Of a DNA stretch of 57,194 bases, positions 6,515 through 54,289 are shown one piece after another. Both the position numbers and the translations under genes were made by a program. The stretch comes from a virus. Within the stretch, counting starts at the first letter, position 1. Each line of letters opens with the position of its first letter. The stretch spans positions 1-57,194 of IMG/VR virus record IMGVR_UViG_3300046616_000599; one strand, 5' to 3'. The notes beneath the pieces are model-generated. The model did no database searches, had not been told where the DNA came from, and saw only the letters and a list, made by a program, of their open reading frames with translations.

Positions 6515-6543
6515 TGTATGCTCTAACGTAGGGCTCACGTCAA
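6515..6543 (-). promoter_or_regulatory. Candidate promoter of the membrane-GAF pair
   Basis: On the minus strand TTGACG (6543..6538) is followed after 17 bases by CATACA (6520..6515), 29 bases before the ATG at 6486. The -35 is good and the -10 weak. A private promoter would allow expression in the lysogen. Confidence 0.4.
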
Positions 6544-8294
6544 GATCCTGGCATCATTCTGGCCAAGGATTCTTGGATTCTTATCCCGATCCACCGAACC
6601 ACGGTGACGGCCTTGCTGTTGCCGATCGCTTTGTAGCGCGGGCCGTCCGGGCATTCGCTCGCATGCTTGCCGCGCCACGGGATCAGCGTGTAATCGTCGA
6701 GCATGCCCTGGAGTCGTTCGCACTCACGAGGGGTCAGGCGTCGAACTGAGGCGCCGACCTGAGCGGAAGGCATTCCTTGACCAGGTTTGCCACCGCCGCA
6801 ACCAAGCGCGCCAGTGATACCGCCGTCACCGTCTTCATAACGAAGCTCCGATCGAGAGTTCTCAGCGAACGCTGCAACAAGCATGCTGGTTTCGGTGACA
6901 GGATTACTGTTGTTGCGCATATTTCCGGAGCGAAGCGTCGGCGATAGCTCCGCAACCATGACGGCGTGTTGGCTGCCTTGGTCGAGCGTATACATCGGAT
7001 CGGTCGCTTCTCCGATACCGATTCCGTTCTGTGATTTGCCCCGTGTTGCGTTTTGGATTGGGGCAACAACAACGTTTGGCCCCAGAGCTGAGTTCGTGTT
7101 GTCCAACTGCTTTCCATAGTTGCTCGTCACTGTTTGGGCGACTTCACGGCAGAACACGGCGTTTTCTTGCCCATTGTTCCGGCCGAGAGTGTGAGCTTGA
7201 TCATTCAGAACGCACGGGTCTTGCGTGCCGTGAACCACCAGGTGGCTGTGGCCGTGATTGGCGTCTTGCCCGGAGCAGCCTTGAAGCCGTCCATAGCTGG
7301 CATCCAGTGTGGCGGCAACGCATGGGACGTCATCGTAGCTGTAGCCTCCGGACTTGCGTGCGCCGTCGGCGAGCGTGGGTGCCACGAAGAACGTCTCGCT
7401 TTCCACATCGAGCCGACTGTCCTTCGCGGTGAGCGTTGCCGACCGCTCGACCGATCCGCCAAGGCTGTGACCGCCGAACGCCGGCACGCCGCAGAACACA
7501 CCAACCGCGGGGCCTTCGTCGCCCTCGCAATTCGGGCAGCCATACTGCCCTAATGACTCGTCGAAGGTGTGTCCGCATCCGCACTGGAGCGCAGGGCCGA
7601 AAGGAGCTGATCCGGTAACGTCTTGCCCCTCGCCTCGGCGCGGCGCAGTATCCCGGCGCACGCCTTCTCGCTCAAAAAGTACCTCGGTGGGATCGAATCC
7701 GTCTCGAGCACTTGCGACAACGAACACACGGCGGCGTCGTTGGGCCAGGCCGAAATATTGGGTGTCCAGGATCCGCCACGCGATTGTTCTTTTGGGTCCA
7801 TACACACAACCAGCGTCCGGCCATTTTTTCCCTGAAGGCTGCAGTTCGCAGTCTTCCCCAGCAAGCGCGCCAAGAAAGCATCCGAAGGCGTTCCCTTTGT
7901 CGCTGAGGACACCGGGGACGTTTTCCCAGACGATGATGCAGGGCGGCTTTCGCTGACCTGCTCGAACATAGTCAACTGCATCTGCGAGCTCCACGTATTT
8001 GATGGTGAGGGCGCCGCGAGGGTCGGTCAGGCCTTCGCGCATCCCGGCCACGCTGAAGGCCTGGCACGGAGTGCCGCCGACAAGGATGTCCGGCGCGGCG
8101 ATCTTGCCGGCCAGTACTTGGGCACCGAGTTTGGTCATGTCGCCGAGGTTCGGCGTGTTCGGGTAGTGGTGGGCCAGCACTGAGCTGGGGAAGGCTTCGA
8201 TCTCAGCGAACCAGGTCGCACGCATGCCCAGCGGCTTCCATGCAAGCGTTGCCGCCTCGATGCCGGAGCAGACCGAACCGTAAGTGATTTCCAT
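6540..8294 (-). CDS. DNA cytosine-5 methyltransferase with large variable region
   Basis: ATG at 8294 has GAGGA upstream and starts directly with motif I (YGSVCSGIEAATLAW). Other motifs: PCQ at 76..78, ENV at 124..126, QRRRRVFV at 185..192, motif IX RRLTPRECERLQG at 518..530 and GNS at 558..560. It transfers methyl groups to C5 of cytosine. The region between motifs VIII and IX is about 300 residues, far longer than usual, with four cysteines (238, 240, 253, 256) and six xxTL boxes. It probably protects phage DNA from restriction; the target sequence cannot be read. No restriction enzyme gene is adjacent. Confidence 0.93.
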   Translation of the reverse strand: MEITYGSVCSGIEAATLAWKPLGMRATWFAEIEAFPSSVLAHHYPNTPNLGDMTKLGAQVLAGKIAAPDILVGGTPCQAFSVAGMREGLTDPRGALTIKYVELADAVDYVRAGQRKPPCIIVWENVPGVLSDKGNAFGCFLGALAGEDCELQPSGKKWPDAGCVYGPKRTIAWRILDTQYFGLAQRRRRVFVVASARDGFDPTEVLFEREGVRRDTAPRRGEGQDVTGSAPFGPALQCGCGHTFDESLGQYGCPNCEGDEGPAVGVFCGVPAFGGHSLGGSVERSATLTAKDSRLDVESETFFVAPTLADGARKSGGYSYDDVPCVAATLDASYGRLQGCSGQDANHGHSHLVVHGTQDPCVLNDQAHTLGRNNGQENAVFCREVAQTVTSNYGKQLDNTNSALGPNVVVAPIQNATRGKSQNGIGIGEATDPMYTLDQGSQHAVMVAELSPTLRSGNMRNNSNPVTETSMLVAAFAENSRSELRYEDGDGGITGALGCGGGKPGQGMPSAQVGASVRRLTPRECERLQGMLDDYTLIPWRGKHASECPDGPRYKAIGNSKAVTVVRWIGIRIQESLARMMPGS

Positions 8295-8379
8295 AGGGGA
8301 TCCTCGCCGGCTGGCGTGATTCGTTGAAGTGGGGTATTTGTGTTCGGCCCGGCATGGAGCCGGATCAAGGGGAAGTGCG

Positions 8380-8637
8380 ATGGTGAAAATTGCTGAAGTA
8401 GTTGCTGAGTTCGCTGCTGAAGGGTTCAGCAACACTGGTAGGCGGACAAGAGGAAGAGTATTGCGCGATTCCCAGGATGGCCGTTACACCGTCCAAGTCG
8501 ATGATGAGGTCCGTGGGCTAAACGAGCCGTCCAACAGTTACGCTACCGAAGCTGAGGCTCGAACGGCGTTATTGGAATACTGGTCTCGCTGCGAAGAAGC
8601 TTTGAAGGCTTCTGGAACGCCAAACTGGAAGCCTTAA
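8380..8637 (+). CDS. Small plus-strand hypothetical protein
   Basis: ATG at 8380 follows AAGGGGAAG. The 85-residue product (MVKIAEVVAEFAAEGFSNTG, then TVQVDDEVRGLNEP) is not recognised. With the next gene it forms a two-gene plus-strand cassette within a leftward operon, which suggests an independently expressed accessory pair. Confidence 0.6.
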   Translation: MVKIAEVVAEFAAEGFSNTGRRTRGRVLRDSQDGRYTVQVDDEVRGLNEPSNSYATEAEARTALLEYWSRCEEALKASGTPNWKP

Positions 8638-23195: not shown

Positions 23196-23381
23196 ATGTT
23201 GAAAGAATGCAGATGTGGAAAATGCAACAGACTTCTCGCCCGCGTGGGTGAGTTTACCGAGCTCCAGATCAAATGTTCCCGATGCGGGACGTTGAATCAT
23301 GAGAAGGCCCTGAGCCTCGAGCGATCGCCTTTGAGCGACATGAAAGCGGAGCACTCCGCGACAAATCATTCGACTCTATAG
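23196..23381 (+). CDS. Mu Com-like zinc protein
   Basis: The 61-residue product MLKECRCGKCNRLLARVGEF continues with LQIKCSRCGTLNHEKALSLE. Two Cys pairs (CRCGKC and KCSRC) and the IKCxRCxxxN core match Mu Com, which binds a stem-loop in mom mRNA and switches on its translation. No mom gene is here; three cargo genes follow, each headed by a copy of this gene's last 18 codons. A longer upstream frame was rejected. Whether it regulates the cargo is inference. Confidence 0.85.
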   Translation: MLKECRCGKCNRLLARVGEFTELQIKCSRCGTLNHEKALSLERSPLSDMKAEHSATNHSTL

Positions 23382-23383
23382 GT
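23324..23383 (+). repeat. com-tail leader, copy A
   Basis: Sixty bases starting ATCGCCTTTGAGCGACATG are the com 3' end and also the leader of the gene at 23390. They match 24071..24130 at 55 of 60 positions. They include the hairpin GCGGAG-CA-CTCCGC (23346..23359) and end with TAG and the ribosome-binding site. Confidence 0.9.
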
Positions 23384-23389
23384 ACAAAA

Positions 23390-23971
23390 ATGAAAGCAAT
23401 CAAAAACGGTTTTGCTCCGGTCGCATTGGCTGCTGCTTTGCTCGCATCGGGTAGCGCCGCCTTCGGCGCAGAGCTGGTAGTAAACGGCAGCTTTGAATCC
23501 CCTGGCTGCAGCAACGACTGCATCCTCAATACTCCTGCCCAGGCCGACTTCGTCACTGGCTGGACGACCTTTCTGTCTGGCGTTGAATACATTAACGTCA
23601 ATGCTGCGATCGGCAACTCCGCGGCCGCAGATGGTTCGATGAGCGTTGACCTCGCCAACTACACCTATCTGAATGGCGGCGGCATTCAACAGAACATCAA
23701 CACTGTTGTTGGCGCCCGTTACCGTTTGACCTTCAGCGCCGGTAACTCCACGTATGTGAATCGCAGTGGCAACGGCATCATCAACGTCAAGGTTGCCGGA
23801 CAAACGACCAGCTTCGACACCCCTGTCGCGACCAGTAATGCAACTGTCTGGGAAACCAAGACCTACGACTTCACTGCAACCACGCCTCAAACCACTCTGA
23901 GCTTCTGGAACGATCAAAATCCAAATGCTCACTTTGCCTTTATCGACAAGGTCAGTGTCGCTCCGCTCTAA
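23390..23971 (+). CDS. Secreted beta-sandwich protein (DUF642/anchor-type)
   Basis: The 193-residue protein has a signal peptide (MKAIKNGFAPVALAAALLAS, cleavage near FGA-EL) and a mature part beginning LVVNGSFESPGC, then SVDLANYTYLNGGGIQQNIN, RYRLTFSAGN and NAHFAFIDKVSV. That is the pattern of DUF642 or choice-of-anchor-C beta-sandwich proteins, which bind carbohydrate. One close Cys pair (CSNDC). First cargo gene after com. It would be exported, unlike the two downstream proteins. Function unknown. Confidence 0.8.
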   Translation: MKAIKNGFAPVALAAALLASGSAAFGAELVVNGSFESPGCSNDCILNTPAQADFVTGWTTFLSGVEYINVNAAIGNSAAADGSMSVDLANYTYLNGGGIQQNINTVVGARYRLTFSAGNSTYVNRSGNGIINVKVAGQTTSFDTPVATSNATVWETKTYDFTATTPQTTLSFWNDQNPNAHFAFIDKVSVAPL

Positions 23972-24070
23972 GGGCTAGGCGACTCAATGCGAATTTTGGT
24001 TTAACTGATTTGACTGAGCGAAGGTCCTAATCTGCCTTTTTTCAGGAAGAAAGCCTCGAGCTTCAAAACT

Positions 24071-24130
24071 ATCGCCTTTGAGCGACATGAAAGCGGAATC
24101 CTCCGCGACAATTCATTCGACTCAATAGGT
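24071..24130 (+). repeat. com-tail leader, copy B
   Basis: This copy is 55/60 identical to 23324..23383. In the com frame it is still open for SPLSDMKAESSATIHSTQ and ends in TAG (24126..24128), just before the LlpA start. Its hairpin GCGGA-ATCC-TCCGC keeps the stem while the loop differs. Confidence 0.9.
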
Positions 24131-24137
24131 GAACAAC

Positions 24138-24995
24138 ATGGCTGGACGTACACGTACTCCGTTTCAACGCAGCGGTACTTCGATTCTCCCTGCTTATCAA
24201 ACAATGTCTGCAGGGCAGTTCCTTCTTTCGCCAAACGGCCGTTTCAAGCTGTTGCTTCAAGCCGACGGCAACCTGGCGTTGCAGGACAATGGTGTAGTGG
24301 TTTGGGTCGCCAACGAAGCTACGCCTTACTCCTCCACCGTACCGTTGCGCTACAAGGTGCCGGTGCAACTCTACGTTCAATATGGCGCGTTTCTCGATGA
24401 TCCGACTCGGGGCCGTACCTGGCTGACAAACAACTCGACGTTCACCAGCGAGGATCAGTGGAACCGAACTCATATGTCGTTGCAGGACGACGGTAACATC
24501 GTGCTGATTGATTCTCAGGCGATTTGGAATGGCACTCCGTCCATTCCGCTTGATCCGACTTCCGGTGCAGTTCTGATCGGAGGCCCGGCCGAGCTACAGA
24601 TGGGAATGCCTTACTTCTGTGGCGATGGTGCACTGATCTTTCAAGGTGACGGCAACGTTGTGAACTACGGGCCGAACTGGAGTGTTCGCTGGGCTAGCTA
24701 CACCCAGAATAAGGGTGCAGTTAAGGCCGTTTTTCAGGCGGATGGTAATTTCGTGGTGTACGCGGCGAATGACGTACCGCTCTGGCAGGCAGGTACCGGC
24801 GGCCATCCTGGCGCTACTCTGCGTCTACAGCCAAATGGCAATTTGTCGATTATTCAGGAAAGCCCGGTTTGGGCTCGTTTTGGCTACACGCCGACTGTGC
24901 GTCGACGCAAGGTTTACTACCCCGATACCACCAGTCCTGAACATAACGGTACCGCGCCATACCCAACCTACGGCCATATCGGCTGGGAGTTCTGA
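24138..24995 (+). CDS. llpA: LlpA-type lectin bacteriocin
   Basis: ATG at 24138 (AGGTGA upstream) gives 285 residues starting [20 protein letters not shown], close to putidacin L1/LlpA. Two tandem monocot mannose-binding-lectin domains carry QxDxNxVxY-type motifs at about 41, 116, 169, 200 and 231; those at 169 (QGDGNVVNY) and 200 (QADGNFVVY) are intact. It ends with the short beta extension typical of LlpA. LlpA proteins kill related pseudomonads, binding D-rhamnose LPS and acting at BamA, without a cognate immunity gene. No signal peptide; release by phage lysis is inference. Confidence 0.93.
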
Positions 24996-25063
24996 TCGCT
25001 CCCACACGAGCTGACGGCTTATTGCCAAGGCTCGCCCTGCGCAGATAAGGCAGGAGTAACAAA

Positions 25064-25092
25064 AGGGTCGTGCCTGTCTGGGCGACCCTCTT
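25064..25092 (+). terminator. Hairpin after the LlpA gene
   Basis: AGGGTCG (25064..25070) and CGACCCT (25083..25089) pair around 12 bases, followed by CTCTT. A modest terminator, followed by a second one at 25119. Confidence 0.5.
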
Positions 25093-25118
25093 ATATGCGA
25101 GGAGTCTCGCACTCATTT

Positions 25119-25147
25119 CAAGGCCTCGATATTGATCGGGGCTTTTT
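25119..25147 (+). terminator. Terminator before the muramidase leader
   Basis: AAGGCCTCGAT pairs with ATCGGGGGCTT (one mismatch) around ATTG, followed by a T run. It separates LlpA from the next cargo gene. Confidence 0.75.
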
Positions 25148-25181
25148 CGTTTCAAGATTCTGAAGGTCGAGAACCTCTTTT

Positions 25182-25239
25182 ATCGCCTTTGAGCGAAACG
25201 GAACCAGCAATTACTGCTCGGTTTCACCCATTCGCTTAG
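25182..25239 (+). repeat. com-tail leader, copy C (diverged)
   Basis: It starts with the same ATCGCCTTTGAGCGA and then diverges. In the com frame it stays open for 18 codons (SPLSETEPAITARFHPFA) and ends in TAG (25237..25239), the same length as copies A and B. A different hairpin (AACCAGCA with TGCTCGGTT) replaces the GCGGA stem; CATTCG near the end is shared. Confidence 0.75.
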
Positions 25240-25251
25240 GGGAAATAACGT

Positions 25252-26400
25252 ATGAAACTAATTACCAAGCCGATCAAAAGTACAGATGAAAATATCTGTG
25301 GAGCTAGCTTTTCCTATAGCGGTACGCCGAATGGTGTAGAGGTCGCAATCGGGAGTCAGCCTCTTACTTTCAGTGCATTCCAGGATAGGGATTACGCCAG
25401 CGCCGTAAGCGGCGTGTTTGCCTTGGGTACCAAGGTGGGCAACACCACCATGCAGCTTGATGCGCGTACGGCTATCAACTTCTCGGTTTCTGAGATTTCA
25501 GGCTCTAAAGGGCCGGAGAGTGATAACACAACTGTCGCAGTTGTTTTGCTGCAGGATGCCGCACCGCTCTTCACGAAGTCTTACAGCTTGAGAGTGCAGG
25601 ACGAATCCGGCGCCTACGTCGATACCAAAGAAAGCGGTGTTTACTCTGGTGCTGGTTTTTCCATCACTATGCCTACGCGGCGCCAAGGGTCTTACGTAGC
25701 CGTTCTCAAAAGTACGGTAAATCGTAATCTCGAGTGCCGAATCGAAATTGCGGTGCCGGTTTCGGGAGCAGGTAGGATCGAGGCGATGCTCAAAGTGGAT
25801 TTCCCACTGGAAGACAAGTCAGTGGCATTCACTACCGCCGAGCTTGAGAGCATGCTTCCTGCGCTGAAAAATCATGAAGGCGAAAAGGACTTCATGTATG
25901 TGGACTCAGAGGGAAACGTAACGACGGGGGTAGGCTTTTTACTTCGTAACGAAGACGCCGCGGCCGGATACCCGTTCGTGGACTTGGACGATAATCCTGC
26001 GACCGAGGAGCAGAAGCGTGCTGAATGGCGACTTATCTCCTCGAAGTACGATAAGGACATCAAACACACAGCTGACTGGTACGAAGATTTCACAGAACTC
26101 TATCTTCAGGGCGATTTCATCGACTCGAAACTCCAGTCGCTCGTAGTCAGTGATTTCTCCGGACTTAGTCGAGTATTTCCCGGCTTTGGGGAATTTCCGT
26201 CGGCTGCACGAATTGCAATCCACGATATGTATTACAACTTGGGCGCTAGCAAGCTTCAGCAGAAGTTTCCTTCACTGATGGCGGCGATCGCTCGGCGTGA
26301 TTGGTCTACTGCCGCCGTAGAGTCTCATCGAACCAAGATCGGCGAAGACCGCAACGACTATGTTCGCGACCTGTTTTTGGTCGCCGCAACTAATCAGTAA
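25252..26400 (+). CDS. Pesticin-like muramidase with unknown N-terminal domain
   Basis: The 382-residue protein has a beta-rich N-terminal region (1..190) that I do not recognise and a C-terminal T4-lysozyme/pesticin-type domain. E209, D218 and T224 (HEGEKDFMYVDSEGNVTTG) keep the E-x8-D-x5-T spacing of T4 lysozyme. The domain cleaves peptidoglycan. A separate hydrolase with spanins (54425) looks like the phage lysis enzyme, so this is more likely a bacteriocin whose N-terminal domain binds a receptor. No signal peptide and no visible immunity gene. It could instead be a second endolysin. Confidence 0.8.
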   Translation: MKLITKPIKSTDENICGASFSYSGTPNGVEVAIGSQPLTFSAFQDRDYASAVSGVFALGTKVGNTTMQLDARTAINFSVSEISGSKGPESDNTTVAVVLLQDAAPLFTKSYSLRVQDESGAYVDTKESGVYSGAGFSITMPTRRQGSYVAVLKSTVNRNLECRIEIAVPVSGAGRIEAMLKVDFPLEDKSVAFTTAELESMLPALKNHEGEKDFMYVDSEGNVTTGVGFLLRNEDAAAGYPFVDLDDNPATEEQKRAEWRLISSKYDKDIKHTADWYEDFTELYLQGDFIDSKLQSLVVSDFSGLSRVFPGFGEFPSAARIAIHDMYYNLGASKLQQKFPSLMAAIARRDWSTAAVESHRTKIGEDRNDYVRDLFLVAATNQ

Positions 26401-26430
26401 TCTCTTCGTTTTCTGATTAATTTATCCACG

Positions 26431-26464
26431 AGGTCCCGCAATGATGCGGGACCTTCTCTTTTTT
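26431..26464 (+). terminator. Terminator between cargo island and holins
   Basis: AGGTCCCGCA and TGCGGGACCT form a perfect 10-bp stem with loop ATGA, followed by TCTCTTTTTT. Confidence 0.9.
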
Positions 26465-26474
26465 GGAGTACCCC

Positions 26475-26849
26475 ATGGCCGAACCGAGTACCGGTGCCCT
26501 GGCAGTAGCCGGCGTACTTGGCAGCGTGAGTCTGGGTGCTGCCTTTCCTACAATTGACCTAGCCGCATTGGTTGGGGCTTTTGGTGGGGCTTTTTTCTAT
26601 GTCGTGTTCGCGAAGGACATTACGTCTTGGCGCCGCGTTGGTTATTTGTTTGCAGGCTGGATCGGCGGCTATTTCGGATCTGCTGAAGTCATGGGCTGGG
26701 CTTGGACTAAGACATCAGGCTTCAGCGCATTTCTATGCGGCGCCTTCTGCGTCGTGTTACTGGCGAGTGTTATCGAATGGATGCAGACCGGCGATATGCC
26801 TCGTTGGCTCCAGTGGTTCCTCAGCCGGCTCGCCGGAAAGGAGGGTTAA
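26475..26849 (+). CDS. Putative phage holin
   Basis: ATG at 26475 follows GGAGTACCCC. The 124-residue protein has three or four membrane segments (LAALVGAFGGAFFYVVFA, GYLFAGWIGGYFGSAEV, FSAFLCGAFCVVLLASVI) and a basic amphipathic C-terminus. Size and topology fit phage holins, which permeabilise the inner membrane at lysis. It is followed with no gap by another small membrane protein. Confidence 0.75.
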   Translation: MAEPSTGALAVAGVLGSVSLGAAFPTIDLAALVGAFGGAFFYVVFAKDITSWRRVGYLFAGWIGGYFGSAEVMGWAWTKTSGFSAFLCGAFCVVLLASVIEWMQTGDMPRWLQWFLSRLAGKEG

Positions 26850-27131
26850 ATGTCCGCGATATTTCAAGCTGCGTTTTGCGCGGCAATCTTCTTCATGATT
26901 GGCTTGCGCTACCGGCCGTTCCCAGACACGCGCTACAAGTTTTGCATGTCGCTAATGGCTTGGGCCGCTTGCTCTGTCACCGGTATGCAGTTCGTTAGCC
27001 TGGTTGGTCGCATCATCCTTCGCGGGGAGGTGCCCGACGCATCTTGGTTCAACACCGCATTTTATTTTCTTGCTGCATTATTGGTGTTCAGGGCGAAGGG
27101 AAATGTCGCTCGAATTTTGAAAGTAGATTGA
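26850..27131 (+). CDS. 3TM phage holin-family protein
   Basis: The gene starts at the base after the previous stop. The 93-residue protein has three membrane segments and the family features FMIGLRYRPFPDTRYKFCMS and a C-terminal RAKGNVARIL. It matches the phage 3TM holin family. With the previous gene it would form a holin/antiholin or two-holin pair. Confidence 0.8.
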   Translation: MSAIFQAAFCAAIFFMIGLRYRPFPDTRYKFCMSLMAWAACSVTGMQFVSLVGRIILRGEVPDASWFNTAFYFLAALLVFRAKGNVARILKVD

Positions 27132-27154: not shown

Positions 27155-27418
27155 GCAAATTGCGTCGCGATACGCTACGAGGAGAGCGGCATAGATGACC
27201 AGCCCAAGAAAACCACCGGCTATCCCGACCTGAGTCAGTCTGAAACCAATGGCATGAACTCAATCAAGGCTATGGAAGCTGATGCCTGGGAACTGAGCAA
27301 GAAGATCGGCCAGATTGAAGGCCTTGACCCGCGACTGCTGGCGTTGGCCAAGACCAAACTCCAGCGGAGTTTCATGTAGTTCGCTCGCTCGATGGCACCA
27401 GCTCATCCGTTCGTCTGA
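27155..27418 (+). pseudogene. Acb2/Tad1-like (anti-CBASS sponge) gene, broken
   Basis: The frame reads RYEESGIDDQPKKTTGY, then SQSETNGMNSIKAMEADAWE, GLDPRLLALAKTKLQRSFM, then TAG (27377..27379), then FARSMAPAHPF and TGA. The order GYxxLSQxE, MNxIK, a helix, DxR, LQxxFM, xxRxxAxPxxF is that of the Acb2 family of small cyclic-nucleotide sponges. No ATG or GTG precedes the conserved start, and a Trp codon probably became amber. A 41-residue internal fragment from ATG 27254 could still be made. Family call is from motif memory. Confidence 0.55.
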
Positions 27419-39460: not shown

Positions 39461-40402
39461 ATGTCGGGCACTATCGCGCAGTTAGGCATCGAGGTTGACT
39501 CGGGCGATGCGGTCAAGGCTGCAACCGACCTGGATAAATTGGTCGATGCGGGCAAGGACGCGGAGGAGGCAGCAAAGCGAACTGGCTCAGCCTGGGAGCA
39601 AGCTCTCGCCGGGATGGCAGGTGACACCAAGCAGATCGTGAAAGAGCTGCAGGCTCTGAACGCCAGGCAGGACACCACCGCTCAACTGATGGCGACGGTT
39701 GGCCGATCGCTTGCGGAGGCGACGCAGGGGCTGAAAACCACTACGACGGCAACTACTGAGCTCACTACCGCTGAAGTGAAACTGGGAGAATCTACAGAGG
39801 ATGCGAAAAGTCGCCTTTTGGCGATGGCCAAAGCGTCCTTGGAGTCGAGCGAGTACTACCAGCGCCTGACCACCAGCATGGAGACCAATTCGGCGGCAAT
39901 GGATGCTTCCGGTTCTTCAGCCAGTAGTTTGGCGGCGCTTGCTCGTCGCCTGAAGGCTGATTCGGATGCGCTGGTCGGGTCCACTGACAAAGAGGCAGAC
40001 GCAGCGAAGAGGGCGGCCGCTGCCACCGGCGTTCAAGCAGAAGGACTGCAAGCACTGCTCGGCAAGATCAATCCTGCCATTGCCGCGCTCGACAAGCTGG
40101 ATCAGCAACAGGCGCAGTTGCAGAAGTACAAGGCCGCAGGGCTGATCGACGCTGATACGTTCCGGGAGTACTCCGCTCGTATCGATGCCTCTCGGCAGAA
40201 GCTGGGCGACTTTGATGAAGGTCTGAAAAAAACCGGTGCCAGCTCGAAACAGACCGAAGCGGCGCTTCGCCAACTTCCTTCTCAGTTCACGGACATTTTC
40301 ACCAGCCTGGCCGGCGGACAAAACCCGTTCTTGGTGCTGATCCAGCAGGGTGGGCAGATCAAAGATTCGTTCGGTGGTGTTGGGGCTACCCTTGAGCGCT
40401 GA
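39461..40402 (+). CDS. Tape measure protein, N-terminal fragment (frameshifted)
   Basis: The frame starts MSGTIAQLGIEVDSGDAVKA, typical of lambda H-like tape measures, and breaks off after FLVLIQQGGQIKDSFGGVGA at TGA 40400. The +1 frame continues ALRDKFRSLFTGGAGAAVLG without interruption. ACC CTT GA-GCG CTG suggests loss of one base from GAA GCG. If real, the long tape measure protein is not made and tails cannot assemble. A sequencing error is the alternative. Confidence 0.8.
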   Translation: MSGTIAQLGIEVDSGDAVKAATDLDKLVDAGKDAEEAAKRTGSAWEQALAGMAGDTKQIVKELQALNARQDTTAQLMATVGRSLAEATQGLKTTTTATTELTTAEVKLGESTEDAKSRLLAMAKASLESSEYYQRLTTSMETNSAAMDASGSSASSLAALARRLKADSDALVGSTDKEADAAKRAAAATGVQAEGLQALLGKINPAIAALDKLDQQQAQLQKYKAAGLIDADTFREYSARIDASRQKLGDFDEGLKKTGASSKQTEAALRQLPSQFTDIFTSLAGGQNPFLVLIQQGGQIKDSFGGVGATLER

Positions 40403-40419: not shown

Positions 40420-43065
40420 TTGTTCACCGGTGGCGCGGGCGCGGCAGTGTTGGGTGAGTCGCTCGCAGGTATTGCGACCAATGCCAAAGACGTAGCCGAC
40501 AACGCGGGTGAAGCAGGGGAAAGCCTATCGGATTTGGCCGAGCGCTCGAACACTGCTGCTGAAGCAGCCGAGAACGCACAGAAAGCGTACGGTGCGCTCC
40601 CTCCAAGCGTGACTGGTGCATCAGCGAGCATGGTGGGTATGGCAGCAGCGGTGGCTGTTGCAGCGGCAGCAATCGCAACACTGATCTACGGATACAGCCA
40701 AGGCAGCAAAGAAGCTGATGAATACAGCAAAGCCCTCATCCTGACCGGCAATGCTGCGGGAACATCGGCGGACCAACTCGCCAACTTGGCTCAGCAGGTC
40801 AGTGCCACAAATGGCACGACCGGAGAGGCTGCGGCTTCGCTGACCGCGCTGGCCGCGAGTGGTGTGATTGCTGGCTCCAGCTTCAAGGAAATCGCAGACG
40901 CTGCTGCTGCGATGGAAGACGCTACCGGAAAGTCGGTGGACGCGACCATCGATGAGTTCATCAAGATCGCCAAGGATCCGGTAGCAGCAGCAAAGGAACT
41001 CAACGGCCAGTACCAGTTCCTGACGGCATCCGTGTATTCACAGATCGTCGCGCTCAAAGAGCAGGGTGATACGGTCGGAGCTGCTGACCTTCTCACGAGA
41101 ACCTATGCGGATACCATTCAACAGCGCTCCAGTCAGGTCACTCAAAATCTGGGATTGTGGGAGAAAGCCTGGAAGGGCGTAAAGGACTCGGCGAACGGCG
41201 CCCTTGATTCAATTTTGGACGTCGGCAGGGTGCAGTCGATTGATACCCAAATCGCCAACCTTGAGAAAATTGTCAGCGAGCGCAAGGGCGGGTTTCTGGC
41301 TTCGCTCTTCCCTGAAGATTTGGGGGCTTCCAGTAAGTCGTCCAGATTTCTCGAAGGGCAATTGACTGCCCTCAGGAACCAGAAAGCTCTGCTGACCCAG
41401 AATGCAGCGATCGACGCTGAGAGGGCGAAAGTTCAGAAGGAAGGAATCGAGGCGGAGCAGCGACTCAAGCAGATCAGCGATTCGAACCTGACCAATGCCG
41501 AGAAACGCGACAAGCTGACGAAATCGTACCTGCGCGATGTTGAGGTTCTGAGGAAGGCGAATCCTGACGACCCCAAAGTTCAGGCCGATTTCGTCGCCAA
41601 AACCCTGCAGAACATCAAGGACAAGAACAAAGACCCGAAAGCAGCGTCCGCCGGCGCAGTTGACCTCACCGGTTACAACGCCGCTCAAAATGCCCTGAAG
41701 GAGATCCAGGCCGAATACGCGAACACCCAGAAACAACTGGATGCCGCGCAGAAGGCCGGGCTGATTTCTCAGCAAGAATATCTGCTGAAGCGCGAAGCGT
41801 TGATCGGTAACGAGAGGGACGAGGTTACGACCGCTTATGAGGCTGAGATTGCGGCGCTTGAAGCGGCGAAGGCCAAGGCCAGCACCACGGCCGAGCAGCG
41901 TATTCAGATCGACCAGAAAATCGAAGATGCGCGCGCGGATATGGTTCGGGCACAAAAGGCTGCGGACAGCGAACTGGATGTGCTGGCGAAGAATGAACAA
42001 GGCCGGCTCAGGAAGCAGGAGCAGGCGGTTCAAACCTACACCAACGCATTGCAGCAGCAAGTTGATACCTTGCGCGAACAAGGCCAGCGTGCCGCTGCGG
42101 GACTTGGCCAGGGAGACCGGCAGCGAGGCCTGACGGATCAGCAGAACGCCATCGACGACCGCTTCAACTCGCAGAAGCTCGATCTGGCCAACCAGTATGG
42201 CGATGGCTCGCGCGGCATGAGCCTCGACGAGTACACCCAGAAACTGGCGGCGCTCAAAGCCACGCAGAAGGATCTGCACGACACGGTGCAAGCCAACTAC
42301 GACGAGATGACGGCGGCCCAAGGCGACTGGAGCGCGGGCGCATCGTCGGCGTGGCAGAACTATCTGGAATCGGCCCGAGATGTCGCCGGTCAAACCAAAA
42401 GCCTTTTCACCAACGCCTTCAGTTCGATGGAAGACGCGATCGTCAATTTCGCCATGACCGGGAAACTGTCGTTCGCCGACTTCACCAAATCGATTCTGGC
42501 TGACATGGCGCGGATCGCCACTCGGCAGGCCAGTTCGGCATTGCTGAGCAGCGTAGTGGGTGCCGCGACGAGCTACTTCACTGGTGGAAGCGGCGCTACA
42601 GGTGCCGCAACCGCTGGCGCGGCGGAGTCTGGGGCTCAGAGTTTTGGCAGTCAGTTTGATGCCAGTTCTGCATCGGTGTCTTTCGGTGGCGGTCGCGCTG
42701 TTGGCGGTGCTGTTGAACCGAACACTTTCTACGAAGTGAATGAAAACGGGCCAGAGCTTTTCAATCAGGGCGGCAGGTCATACCTCATGACTGGCGCGAG
42801 TGGCGGTAGTGTCACACCTCTGACTTCCGGTGGCGGGCCAGCGCTTGCCGCAATGTCCGGTACTGGCGGTGGCAACACCTACAACTTCCCTGTAGCGGTC
42901 ACGGTGCAGACAACCGGCGGAGCAGAGTCGCCCGCAACAAGTCAGCAAGCATCGGCCGATCTCGGGAAAGGAGTGCAGCAAGTTGCGCAGTCCGTGGTGG
43001 ATAGAGCGATTGCTAAGGAGCTGCAGCCAGGTGGCGCGATCTGGCAAAAGATCAATCGGAGGTAG
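40420..43065 (+). CDS. Tape measure protein, C-terminal fragment (frameshifted)
   Basis: This 881-residue frame is the remainder of the tape measure. It has the prophage tail-length domain at about 70..210 (SKALILTGNAAGTSADQLAN), a long coiled-coil region, and a lambda H-like C-terminal domain with FTNAFSSMEDAIVNFAMTGK and LSFADFTKSILADMARIATR. Its first possible start is TTG without a ribosome-binding site, so independent translation is doubtful. The repaired protein would have about 1,200 residues. Confidence 0.85.
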   Translation: MFTGGAGAAVLGESLAGIATNAKDVADNAGEAGESLSDLAERSNTAAEAAENAQKAYGALPPSVTGASASMVGMAAAVAVAAAAIATLIYGYSQGSKEADEYSKALILTGNAAGTSADQLANLAQQVSATNGTTGEAAASLTALAASGVIAGSSFKEIADAAAAMEDATGKSVDATIDEFIKIAKDPVAAAKELNGQYQFLTASVYSQIVALKEQGDTVGAADLLTRTYADTIQQRSSQVTQNLGLWEKAWKGVKDSANGALDSILDVGRVQSIDTQIANLEKIVSERKGGFLASLFPEDLGASSKSSRFLEGQLTALRNQKALLTQNAAIDAERAKVQKEGIEAEQRLKQISDSNLTNAEKRDKLTKSYLRDVEVLRKANPDDPKVQADFVAKTLQNIKDKNKDPKAASAGAVDLTGYNAAQNALKEIQAEYANTQKQLDAAQKAGLISQQEYLLKREALIGNERDEVTTAYEAEIAALEAAKAKASTTAEQRIQIDQKIEDARADMVRAQKAADSELDVLAKNEQGRLRKQEQAVQTYTNALQQQVDTLREQGQRAAAGLGQGDRQRGLTDQQNAIDDRFNSQKLDLANQYGDGSRGMSLDEYTQKLAALKATQKDLHDTVQANYDEMTAAQGDWSAGASSAWQNYLESARDVAGQTKSLFTNAFSSMEDAIVNFAMTGKLSFADFTKSILADMARIATRQASSALLSSVVGAATSYFTGGSGATGAATAGAAESGAQSFGSQFDASSASVSFGGGRAVGGAVEPNTFYEVNENGPELFNQGGRSYLMTGASGGSVTPLTSGGGPALAAMSGTGGGNTYNFPVAVTVQTTGGAESPATSQQASADLGKGVQQVAQSVVDRAIAKELQPGGAIWQKINRR

Positions 43066-53332: not shown

Positions 53333-54289
53333 TTAGCTTGATGCCTCCCTTGCCCTAATTGCTGTGCCTACGTGATTGCGTCGTTTAAATCTGATGCATG
53401 GTTGCTCAATTAGAAACCAGCTTGCGATGCAGGTCGGAATCAGGACAACTACCAAAATTACGCTAGCGTTTAATATGTCAGTGATTCTTAATTTTTCGGT
53501 TATGAAAAGAAGGATTGGTATGTGGTAAATATATATACCGTAGCTGATGTCGGGCAGTTTCCTGCGAATTAACGGGTATCCGCTAATGCCGACCAATACA
53601 ATAGCTGCAGCCTGAAGTAGCGGGCGCATAGGGAAAGGTGGAGAGACCAATAGTGCAATCAGGAAAACCCAAGGTAGCACCAGACCGAACACCTTAAGCC
53701 TCGCTCTATATAAAAACGCGAGATTCCCCACAAAAAAGGCTTGTGCTAATAGCGCTAGCGTGATGCTTAGTGGGTCGCTTCTGTAAGCAGATAAAGAAAA
53801 AGCGATGACGGTCGTAAGTGCAAGAGCGCCCCAGATTAAGATTGGCTTTTTGTATGCTCCAATAAACCAAAGAAAAGCCAGCATTAAATAGGAAAGTTCT
53901 TCCCAAGCTAGTGACCAGAGGGCTTGATTGGTATAGCCATTTTTTGGTAGATAAATTCCGCCAGTCAGCCATGTTGTAATTGAGTTTTTTGTAACAGTGA
54001 AATCAAATAGAAAATAGGTAAGTAACAGAGAGGCCGTAAGCGCTGGGATGATTCTCAGGATGCGCCGTATAGCAAAATCTTTTAGTGATGTTTTCTCGCT
54101 ATAACTTTTTAAAACGACAACGCCACTTATCGCTAGAAATGCAGGGACGGCCATTATCCAAGCTTGCCAAGATCTGTTTGGAGTGCAGAACAGATAAAGA
54201 TGTGCGACGACTACAATAAAAGCTAAGAATAATCGCAGTACATCAAAGTTTGGGTATCTTTCTGCGCTTGCAGTATCCATTTGTTTCAT
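53333..54289 (-). CDS. Acyltransferase-3 family membrane protein (O-antigen modification)
   Basis: The 318-residue protein has about ten membrane helices and the acyltransferase-3 pattern: YPNFDVLRLFLAFIVVVAHL, an early VPAFLAISGVVVLKSY, RRILRIIPALTASLL and YGIYIYHIPILLF near the end. Such enzymes O-acylate surface polysaccharide; in prophages they change the serotype and block related phages. It is leftward and AT-rich next to the fibre genes, the usual site of seroconversion genes. The host locus beyond attR appears to make O-antigen. Confidence 0.88.
   Translation of the reverse strand: MKQMDTASAERYPNFDVLRLFLAFIVVVAHLYLFCTPNRSWQAWIMAVPAFLAISGVVVLKSYSEKTSLKDFAIRRILRIIPALTASLLLTYFLFDFTVTKNSITTWLTGGIYLPKNGYTNQALWSLAWEELSYLMLAFLWFIGAYKKPILIWGALALTTVIAFSLSAYRSDPLSITLALLAQAFFVGNLAFLYRARLKVFGLVLPWVFLIALLVSPPFPMRPLLQAAAIVLVGISGYPLIRRKLPDISYGIYIYHIPILLFITEKLRITDILNASVILVVVLIPTCIASWFLIEQPCIRFKRRNHVGTAIRAREASS

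Follow-up and report, generated by a model that had tools for sequence, protein, structure and literature searches.

The virus record IMGVR_UViG_3300046616_000599, analysed here over 57,194 nt (the window), is a lambda-like Pseudomonas prophage, in whose open reading frames profile scans identified an integrase, a CI-type repressor, NinG, a terminase, and head and tail genes. Its plus strand carries com, three further genes each preceded by a copy of the same leader, and two holin genes. These features are listed below; HP1 and HP2 are the two hairpins of the leader, and R1 is a covariance model of the leader, for which a strong match is one of 30 bits or more.

23196..23381, plus strand: com, encoding a 61-aa zinc-ribbon protein of the Mu Com family (PF10122, E 4.8e-19); its 3' end overlaps leader 1
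23300..23383, plus strand: leader 1, before the DUF642 gene (R1 61.3 bits), with HP1 at 23305-23317, HP2 at 23325-23338, a third stem at 23346-23359 and the Shine-Dalgarno sequence AGGT at about 23380
23390..23971, plus strand: DUF642 protein, 193 aa (PF04862, E 2.8e-17; phrog_18458)
24046..24132, plus strand: leader 2, before llpA and without com coding sequence (R1 52.1 bits), with HP1 at 24051-24063, HP2 at 24072-24085, a third stem at 24093-24106 and the Shine-Dalgarno sequence AGGTG at about 24127
24138..24995, plus strand: llpA, encoding a lectin-like bacteriocin of the putidacin L1 family, 285 aa, ATG at 24138 (NF033557; PDB 3m7h)
25120..25145, plus strand: terminator-like hairpin 3' of llpA (consensus scan only)
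25159..25245, plus strand: leader 3, before the muramidase gene and without com coding sequence (R1 46.2 bits), with HP1 at 25164-25176 (closing pair U-A) and HP2 at 25183-25196
25252..26400, plus strand: muramidase, 382 aa, probable endolysin (phrog_7, E 2e-41)
26430..26455, plus strand: terminator-like hairpin 3' of the muramidase gene (consensus scan only)
26475..26849, plus strand: holin, Phage_holin_8 (PF16931, E 1.5e-25)
26850..27131, plus strand: second holin, Phage_holin_3_7 (PF05449, E 5.7e-11)

The initial annotation placed llpA and the muramidase gene between a late promoter and the holins. Two holin genes indeed follow the muramidase gene, but the late promoter was not borne out: a consensus scan for sigma-70 sites found 2 against 3.2 expected by chance, and an alignment of 41 regions upstream of com yielded no clear −35/−10 consensus. 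The defect suspected in the tape-measure gene is present in the window sequence, where the gene is split into two frames (39461-40402 and 40420-43065, covering positions 25-300 and 290-1058 of phrog_24), whereas in the close relative Pseudomonas sp. GM80 it forms one open frame of 1205 codons; the split may be a sequencing error instead of a real mutation. Related llpA prophages have no enzyme between llpA and the holin-like genes, and the muramidase gene therefore appears to be an insertion into this slot.

Other genes of the prophage deserve mention. Downstream of the second holin gene, a frame at 27194-27376 carries an Acb2/Tad1 hairpin domain (PF24729, E 8e-8) of the counter-CBASS sponge family, with ATA at 27191, where the relative L044 appears to have its start codon. 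On the minus strand at the right end, 53333-54289 encodes an O-acetyltransferase of the serotype-conversion type (PF01757; phrog O-antigen acetylase), which could alter the LPS used by phages and by lectin bacteriocins. The left prophage arm holds a DNA methyltransferase-like frame (phrog_116) at 6540-8435, also on the minus strand.

The product of llpA was confirmed as an LlpA lectin bacteriocin, scoring 421.7 bits against NF033557 (cut-off 275) and matching PDB 3m7h with an E value of 3.4e-111 over 264 residues (phmmer). It has tandem B-lectin domains (PF01453, 32.8 bits against a cut-off of 32.4), and the sequence of its C-terminal lectin domain keeps QGDGNVVNY and QADGNFVVY, two sugar-site motifs of the form QxDxNxVxY. 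As previously noted, the N-termini of LlpA and the muramidase do not read as signal peptides; that of the DUF642 protein does, which points to secretion. Judged by its family and its position, LlpA is well supported as a bacteriocin released by lysis. The carriage of llpA by prophages and tailocins and its 'lysis piggybacking' have already been published (PMC6240691, PMC2647930), and a 2018 review of lectin-like bacteriocins reported com in front of about 90% of the llpA genes of species other than P. aeruginosa, stating that the role of Com 'remains to be explored' and posing bacteriocin control and release as questions (PMC6240691).

We found ATCGCCTTTGAGCGA in exactly three copies in the window, each just before a gene (DUF642, llpA and muramidase). 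The leader consists of HP1 (for example AGGC-CNNGA-GCCT) and HP2 (TCGC-CNNNGA-GCGA), followed by the third stem, and two of the copies share 92% identity across 60 nt. The same leader precedes llpA in related loci, and many viral contigs from Pseudomonas have it in front of other genes. The three genes of the window are thus tied together by a common Com-type RNA leader, which, like com and the DUF642 gene, was absent from the initial annotation.

SELEX, EMSA and SHAPE experiments on a Mu-type Com have defined its binding site as the loop motif 5'-CC(N)2-3GAG-3' of a hairpin with a closing C-G pair, and an RNA with two such motifs was bound better than an RNA with one (PMC6483171). HP1 and HP2 fit this motif exactly in leaders 1 and 2, as does HP2 in leader 3, while HP1 of leader 3 has its closing pair swapped to U-A; the Mu site, GAAUGC-CUGCGA-GCAUC, is of this type too. 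A search by protein sequence gave 101 distinct com genes, and 94 of them have at least two such hairpins just downstream of the zinc ribbon, compared with 0.8% of shuffles, a count that is descriptive since the sequences are related. Rfam gave no match in the window, and the leader may therefore represent a new RNA family; the RNA preferences of its presumed protein partner have been determined experimentally in a relative.

Covariation of the stems was examined, among others, in leader copies that lack com coding sequence and are thus free of protein constraint. In 15 such copies 100% of the cells were paired, with 17 double changes as compared to 4.9 in shuffled data and at most 45% pairing for slid partners, and 31 diverse leaders were 98% paired, with 25 double changes against 3.9; both sets were picked partly by the presence of the stems and their rows are related, so that the shuffle p-values overstate independence. 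Selecting by HP2 only also recovered an HP1 stem, 4 bp or longer, in the true com-less leaders. The third stem also covaries, and HP2 shows a compensated change in P. aeruginosa phages (GCGC/GCGC). The com genes from phages of Burkholderia, Moraxella and Stenotrophomonas have double hairpins of this type as well, but built from other stems (GGGC/GCCC and AGGC/GCCU; GCGU/ACGC and AGUC/GACU; AGGC/GCCU and UCGC/GCGA), each with a shuffle probability of 0.0018 or less.

Across 249 Pseudomonas genomes, R1 matched in 68 and com was present in 75. All 61 genomes with a strong match had com (Fisher p 6e-45, inflated and partly trivial in that most leaders overlap com); weak matches of 27-29 bits in three com-less genomes were treated as chance. 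Among 100 R1 matches, 71 adjoin com and 15 lie 0.7-16 kb from it, with the remaining 14, eight of them weak, either having no com on the same contig and strand or lying far from it. Six strong leaders without a nearby com, from five genomes, head cargo genes, and com is found elsewhere in all five genomes.

The first cargo gene overlaps com and later ones usually have the leader alone, two loci (L220 and L223) having a second com. Cargo is swapped freely behind the same leader. Counted as unique proteins, the leader-headed families comprise 48 proteins of about 110 aa without a Pfam match, 42 lectin bacteriocins, 14 DUF642 proteins, 6 proteins of a 320-aa family, 5 secreted proteins of 213 aa, 5 colicin M-like proteins (PF14859) and 4 muramidases; other leader-headed genes encode GH5 (PF00150) and levansucrase (PF02435), which are the genes of the previously described phage-associated promoter element (PAPE), as well as Dam and tailocin GH19 endolysins. 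The leader could serve as a marker, with the genes downstream of it being candidate new bacteriocins or secreted factors, for example the family of about 110 aa. This largest family (L145:4196-4621 and 47 relatives) begins with sequences like MEPVTVGAKFY. The GH19 endolysin genes, located at tailocin ends (L222:14761, L224:13541, L229:2665, L230:2164 and L231:17739), have HP1/HP2-like leaders 11-16 kb from com. We tentatively raise the possibility of a Com regulon acting in trans and common to Pseudomonas prophages and tailocins, in which leaders would be portable locks, off by default, and one com copy would open leaders of bacteriocin, lysis and secreted-protein genes at other places in the chromosome; induction of one element would then arm the cargo of another.

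Folding of 42 non-redundant leaders predicted a long hairpin in which HP2 supplies the 5' arm and, in most cases, the Shine-Dalgarno sequence is buried. The mean unpaired probability of the Shine-Dalgarno sequence was 0.13, as compared to 0.25 with only the linker shuffled and 0.34 with everything upstream shuffled. When 26 leaders were aligned, 82% of the pairs that make up this masking hairpin could form, as opposed to at most 43% for slid partners. The prediction comes from single-sequence folding and pair counts; RNAalifold, applied to full leaders, preferred the three-hairpin state and did not return the long hairpin as a consensus. Masking was not predicted in the 320-aa, GH19 and some other leaders (it was absent in both GH19 endolysin leaders tested). 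The sealing principle is predicted to recur with other pairs, since it is the 3' arm of HP1, together with the linker, that seals the dam leader of P. aeruginosa phage UMP151. By these models HP2 would be under a double constraint, as a Com-type hairpin and as an arm of the masking hairpin, which would explain its near invariance.

HP1 can coexist with the masking hairpin in the folding models. When HP1 and HP2 were both held, the mean unpaired probability of the Shine-Dalgarno sequence rose to 0.40, with only partial freeing for llpA (0.34) and the muramidase gene (0.36); in the DUF642 leader, holding HP2 alone did not free it, while holding both in a shorter transcript did. The energy cost of holding both (median 7 kcal/mol; 4-16 kcal/mol in the window leaders) suggests that the hairpins would be captured while transcription is under way, ahead of the synthesis of the 3' arm. 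Taken together, the cost and the partial freeing imply that opening would have to be co-transcriptional or to need more than simple binding.

The muramidase has no Pfam match as a whole protein and matches PHROG 'endolysin' (phrog_7, E 2e-41). It is composed of an N-terminal domain of about 190 aa without known relatives and a C-terminal domain of the T4-lysozyme type, in which E209, D218 and T224 align with the T4 lysozyme catalytic residues (phmmer, with a weak overall score). The E/D/T residues are invariant in five homologues, and the N-terminal domain is conserved as well; the score against PF00959 is under the cut-off. AlphaFold models of the full-length protein and of the C-terminal part were of low confidence (mean pLDDT 47 and 53) and gave weak Foldseek matches (best E 1e-3 and 8e-3), and a tblastn search of phage records with the muramidase had no match. 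The term "pesticin-type muramidase" given to this protein earlier holds as far as the T4-lysozyme/pesticin superfamily is concerned, but not for the pesticin type proper, as the pesticin C-terminal domain (PF16754) is unmatched in it. Lysozyme-domain proteins of about 250 aa are also encoded on enterobacterial plasmids (L178:630-2084, L179:3297-4748 and L180:2851-4285), each with a convergent ORF of about 208 aa, an arrangement like that of a bacteriocin/immunity pair.

We consider that the muramidase is more likely the prophage's own endolysin than a second bacteriocin, because it is the sole lysis enzyme found among the prophage ORFs scanned, no immunity gene adjoins it (the next genes being the two holins), and locus L173 has the order com, muramidase, holin-like, Rz-like, terminase; the lysis-cassette position next to a holin is common to the window and L173. 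Of the two adjacent killing proteins described in the initial annotation, LlpA was therefore borne out by family and position, while the case for the muramidase as a killer is weaker, the endolysin being the more economical reading. That it is instead a second released bacteriocin would agree with the plasmid relatives of its catalytic domain, which match PF00959 and weakly PF16754 and stand on small plasmids beside ORFs resembling immunity genes, with a tailocin copy in L175 that lies between baseplate-like genes, away from the holin, and with the orphan N-terminal domain. The leader that the muramidase gene has in common with llpA fits this as well, yet tailocin GH19 endolysins carry leaders of the same kind, and with the adjoining holins, the L173 order and the lack of another endolysin among the scanned ORFs, we find a role as bacteriocin in place of endolysin rather unlikely. 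A muramidase that both lyses the producer and, once released, acts on neighbouring cells through its N-terminal domain would combine the two bodies of evidence and account for a conserved domain of about 190 aa that simple lysozyme action does not need. No receptor-binding or TonB-box-like feature was identified in it and the structure model is too weak, and such a double function seems improbable.

These results suggest that com and the genes behind it form a cargo-and-lysis module, and we think it likely that the module is under a common Com-opened translational switch, the leader having been copied onto cargo and lysis genes. The module would run from com through the DUF642 gene, llpA and the muramidase gene, each with its own leader copy, to the holins. 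In the free leader, the long hairpin would hide the Shine-Dalgarno sequence, with HP2 as its 5' arm and HP1 forming alongside. Once com is expressed, Com would engage first HP1 and then HP2 through their CNN(N)GA loops, probably while the RNA is still being transcribed, and so block the long hairpin, letting ribosomes start on the bacteriocin and the lysis enzyme together. The muramidase would cut the producer's wall as its endolysin, and LlpA would exit on lysis and, as known members do through LPS D-rhamnose and BamA, kill sensitive pseudomonads at their surface. The binding of Com and the translational regulation in pseudomonads are proposed here by analogy with Mu. If true, Com would open the lock on killer and lysis genes together, tying weapon production to lysis, and the leader offers a base-level, directly testable hypothesis for the role of Com before llpA.

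A published experiment counts against this switch: a premature stop in com on plasmid-borne lscB left levan production unchanged (PMC3899960). The host in that experiment was an lscB lscC mutant, which, we infer, may keep genomic com copies that supply Com in trans. The same inactivation, together with the need of lscB for its upstream region (PMC3973379, PMC3899960) and the terminator-like hairpins nearby, could be taken to mean that the leader is mainly a transcriptional device, a promoter or attenuator as proposed for PAPE, to which Com is incidental. However, transcription of lscB has been mapped to a start 339 nt before the start codon, upstream of both com and the leader, so the leader is transcribed; the window has no excess of sigma-70 sites, and the loops match the defined Com RNA motif, all of which makes a transcriptional role very improbable. 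Only a little less doubtful is that the leader is a mere patch of homology at a mosaic boundary, used for the recombination of cargo cassettes and free of any regulatory role, although cargo is indeed exchanged freely behind it, copies in one locus reach the 92% identity seen here, and PAPE has been proposed to be a mobile element (PMC3899960). Recombination homology would keep sequence and not compensated changes, whereas here it is the pairing that is conserved: the tandem copies of one locus vary in their stems, and com genes of other genera have double hairpins with different stems. We therefore favour the Com-opened switch.

The linkage of com to llpA and to other tailocin cargo (PMC6240691), PAPE (PMC3899960, PMC3973379) and the Com-mom system of Mu are already known; in the open-access literature searched, we found no description of the double-hairpin leader, of tandem com-less copies or of the lock. 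With regard to the proteins, the window llpA resembles putidacin L1/LlpA lectin-like bacteriocins in family, sugar-site motifs, com linkage and prophage location, and differs in having its own com-less leader and in following a DUF642 gene with a leader of its own. The muramidase has the E-D-T catalytic arrangement of T4 lysozyme/pesticin muramidases in its C-terminal domain, but has in addition an unrelated N-terminal domain of about 190 aa, lacks PF16754 and occupies an endolysin position.

PAPE was described in Pseudomonas syringae as a promoter element of lscB/lscC and GH5 genes, and com with the same leader lies directly before GH5 and levansucrase genes, the comparison with the window covering com and the leader. 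Here, the conserved core is a folded RNA that lies 3' of the transcription start mapped for lscB and is also present in com-less copies, so that PAPE may be reinterpreted as containing an RNA switch. In phage Mu, Com binds a hairpin beside the translation inhibition structure of mom. Both systems have a zinc-ribbon Com encoded in cis, a target hairpin at the 3' end of com with a C-NN(N)-GA loop, and a Shine-Dalgarno sequence inside an inhibitory stem, the last of these by prediction only in our case. The leader described here differs in having two target hairpins instead of one, in standing in tandem copies before several unrelated cargo genes, and in its targets, which are bacteriocins, secreted proteins and lysis enzymes, whereas the target in Mu is a DNA modifier.
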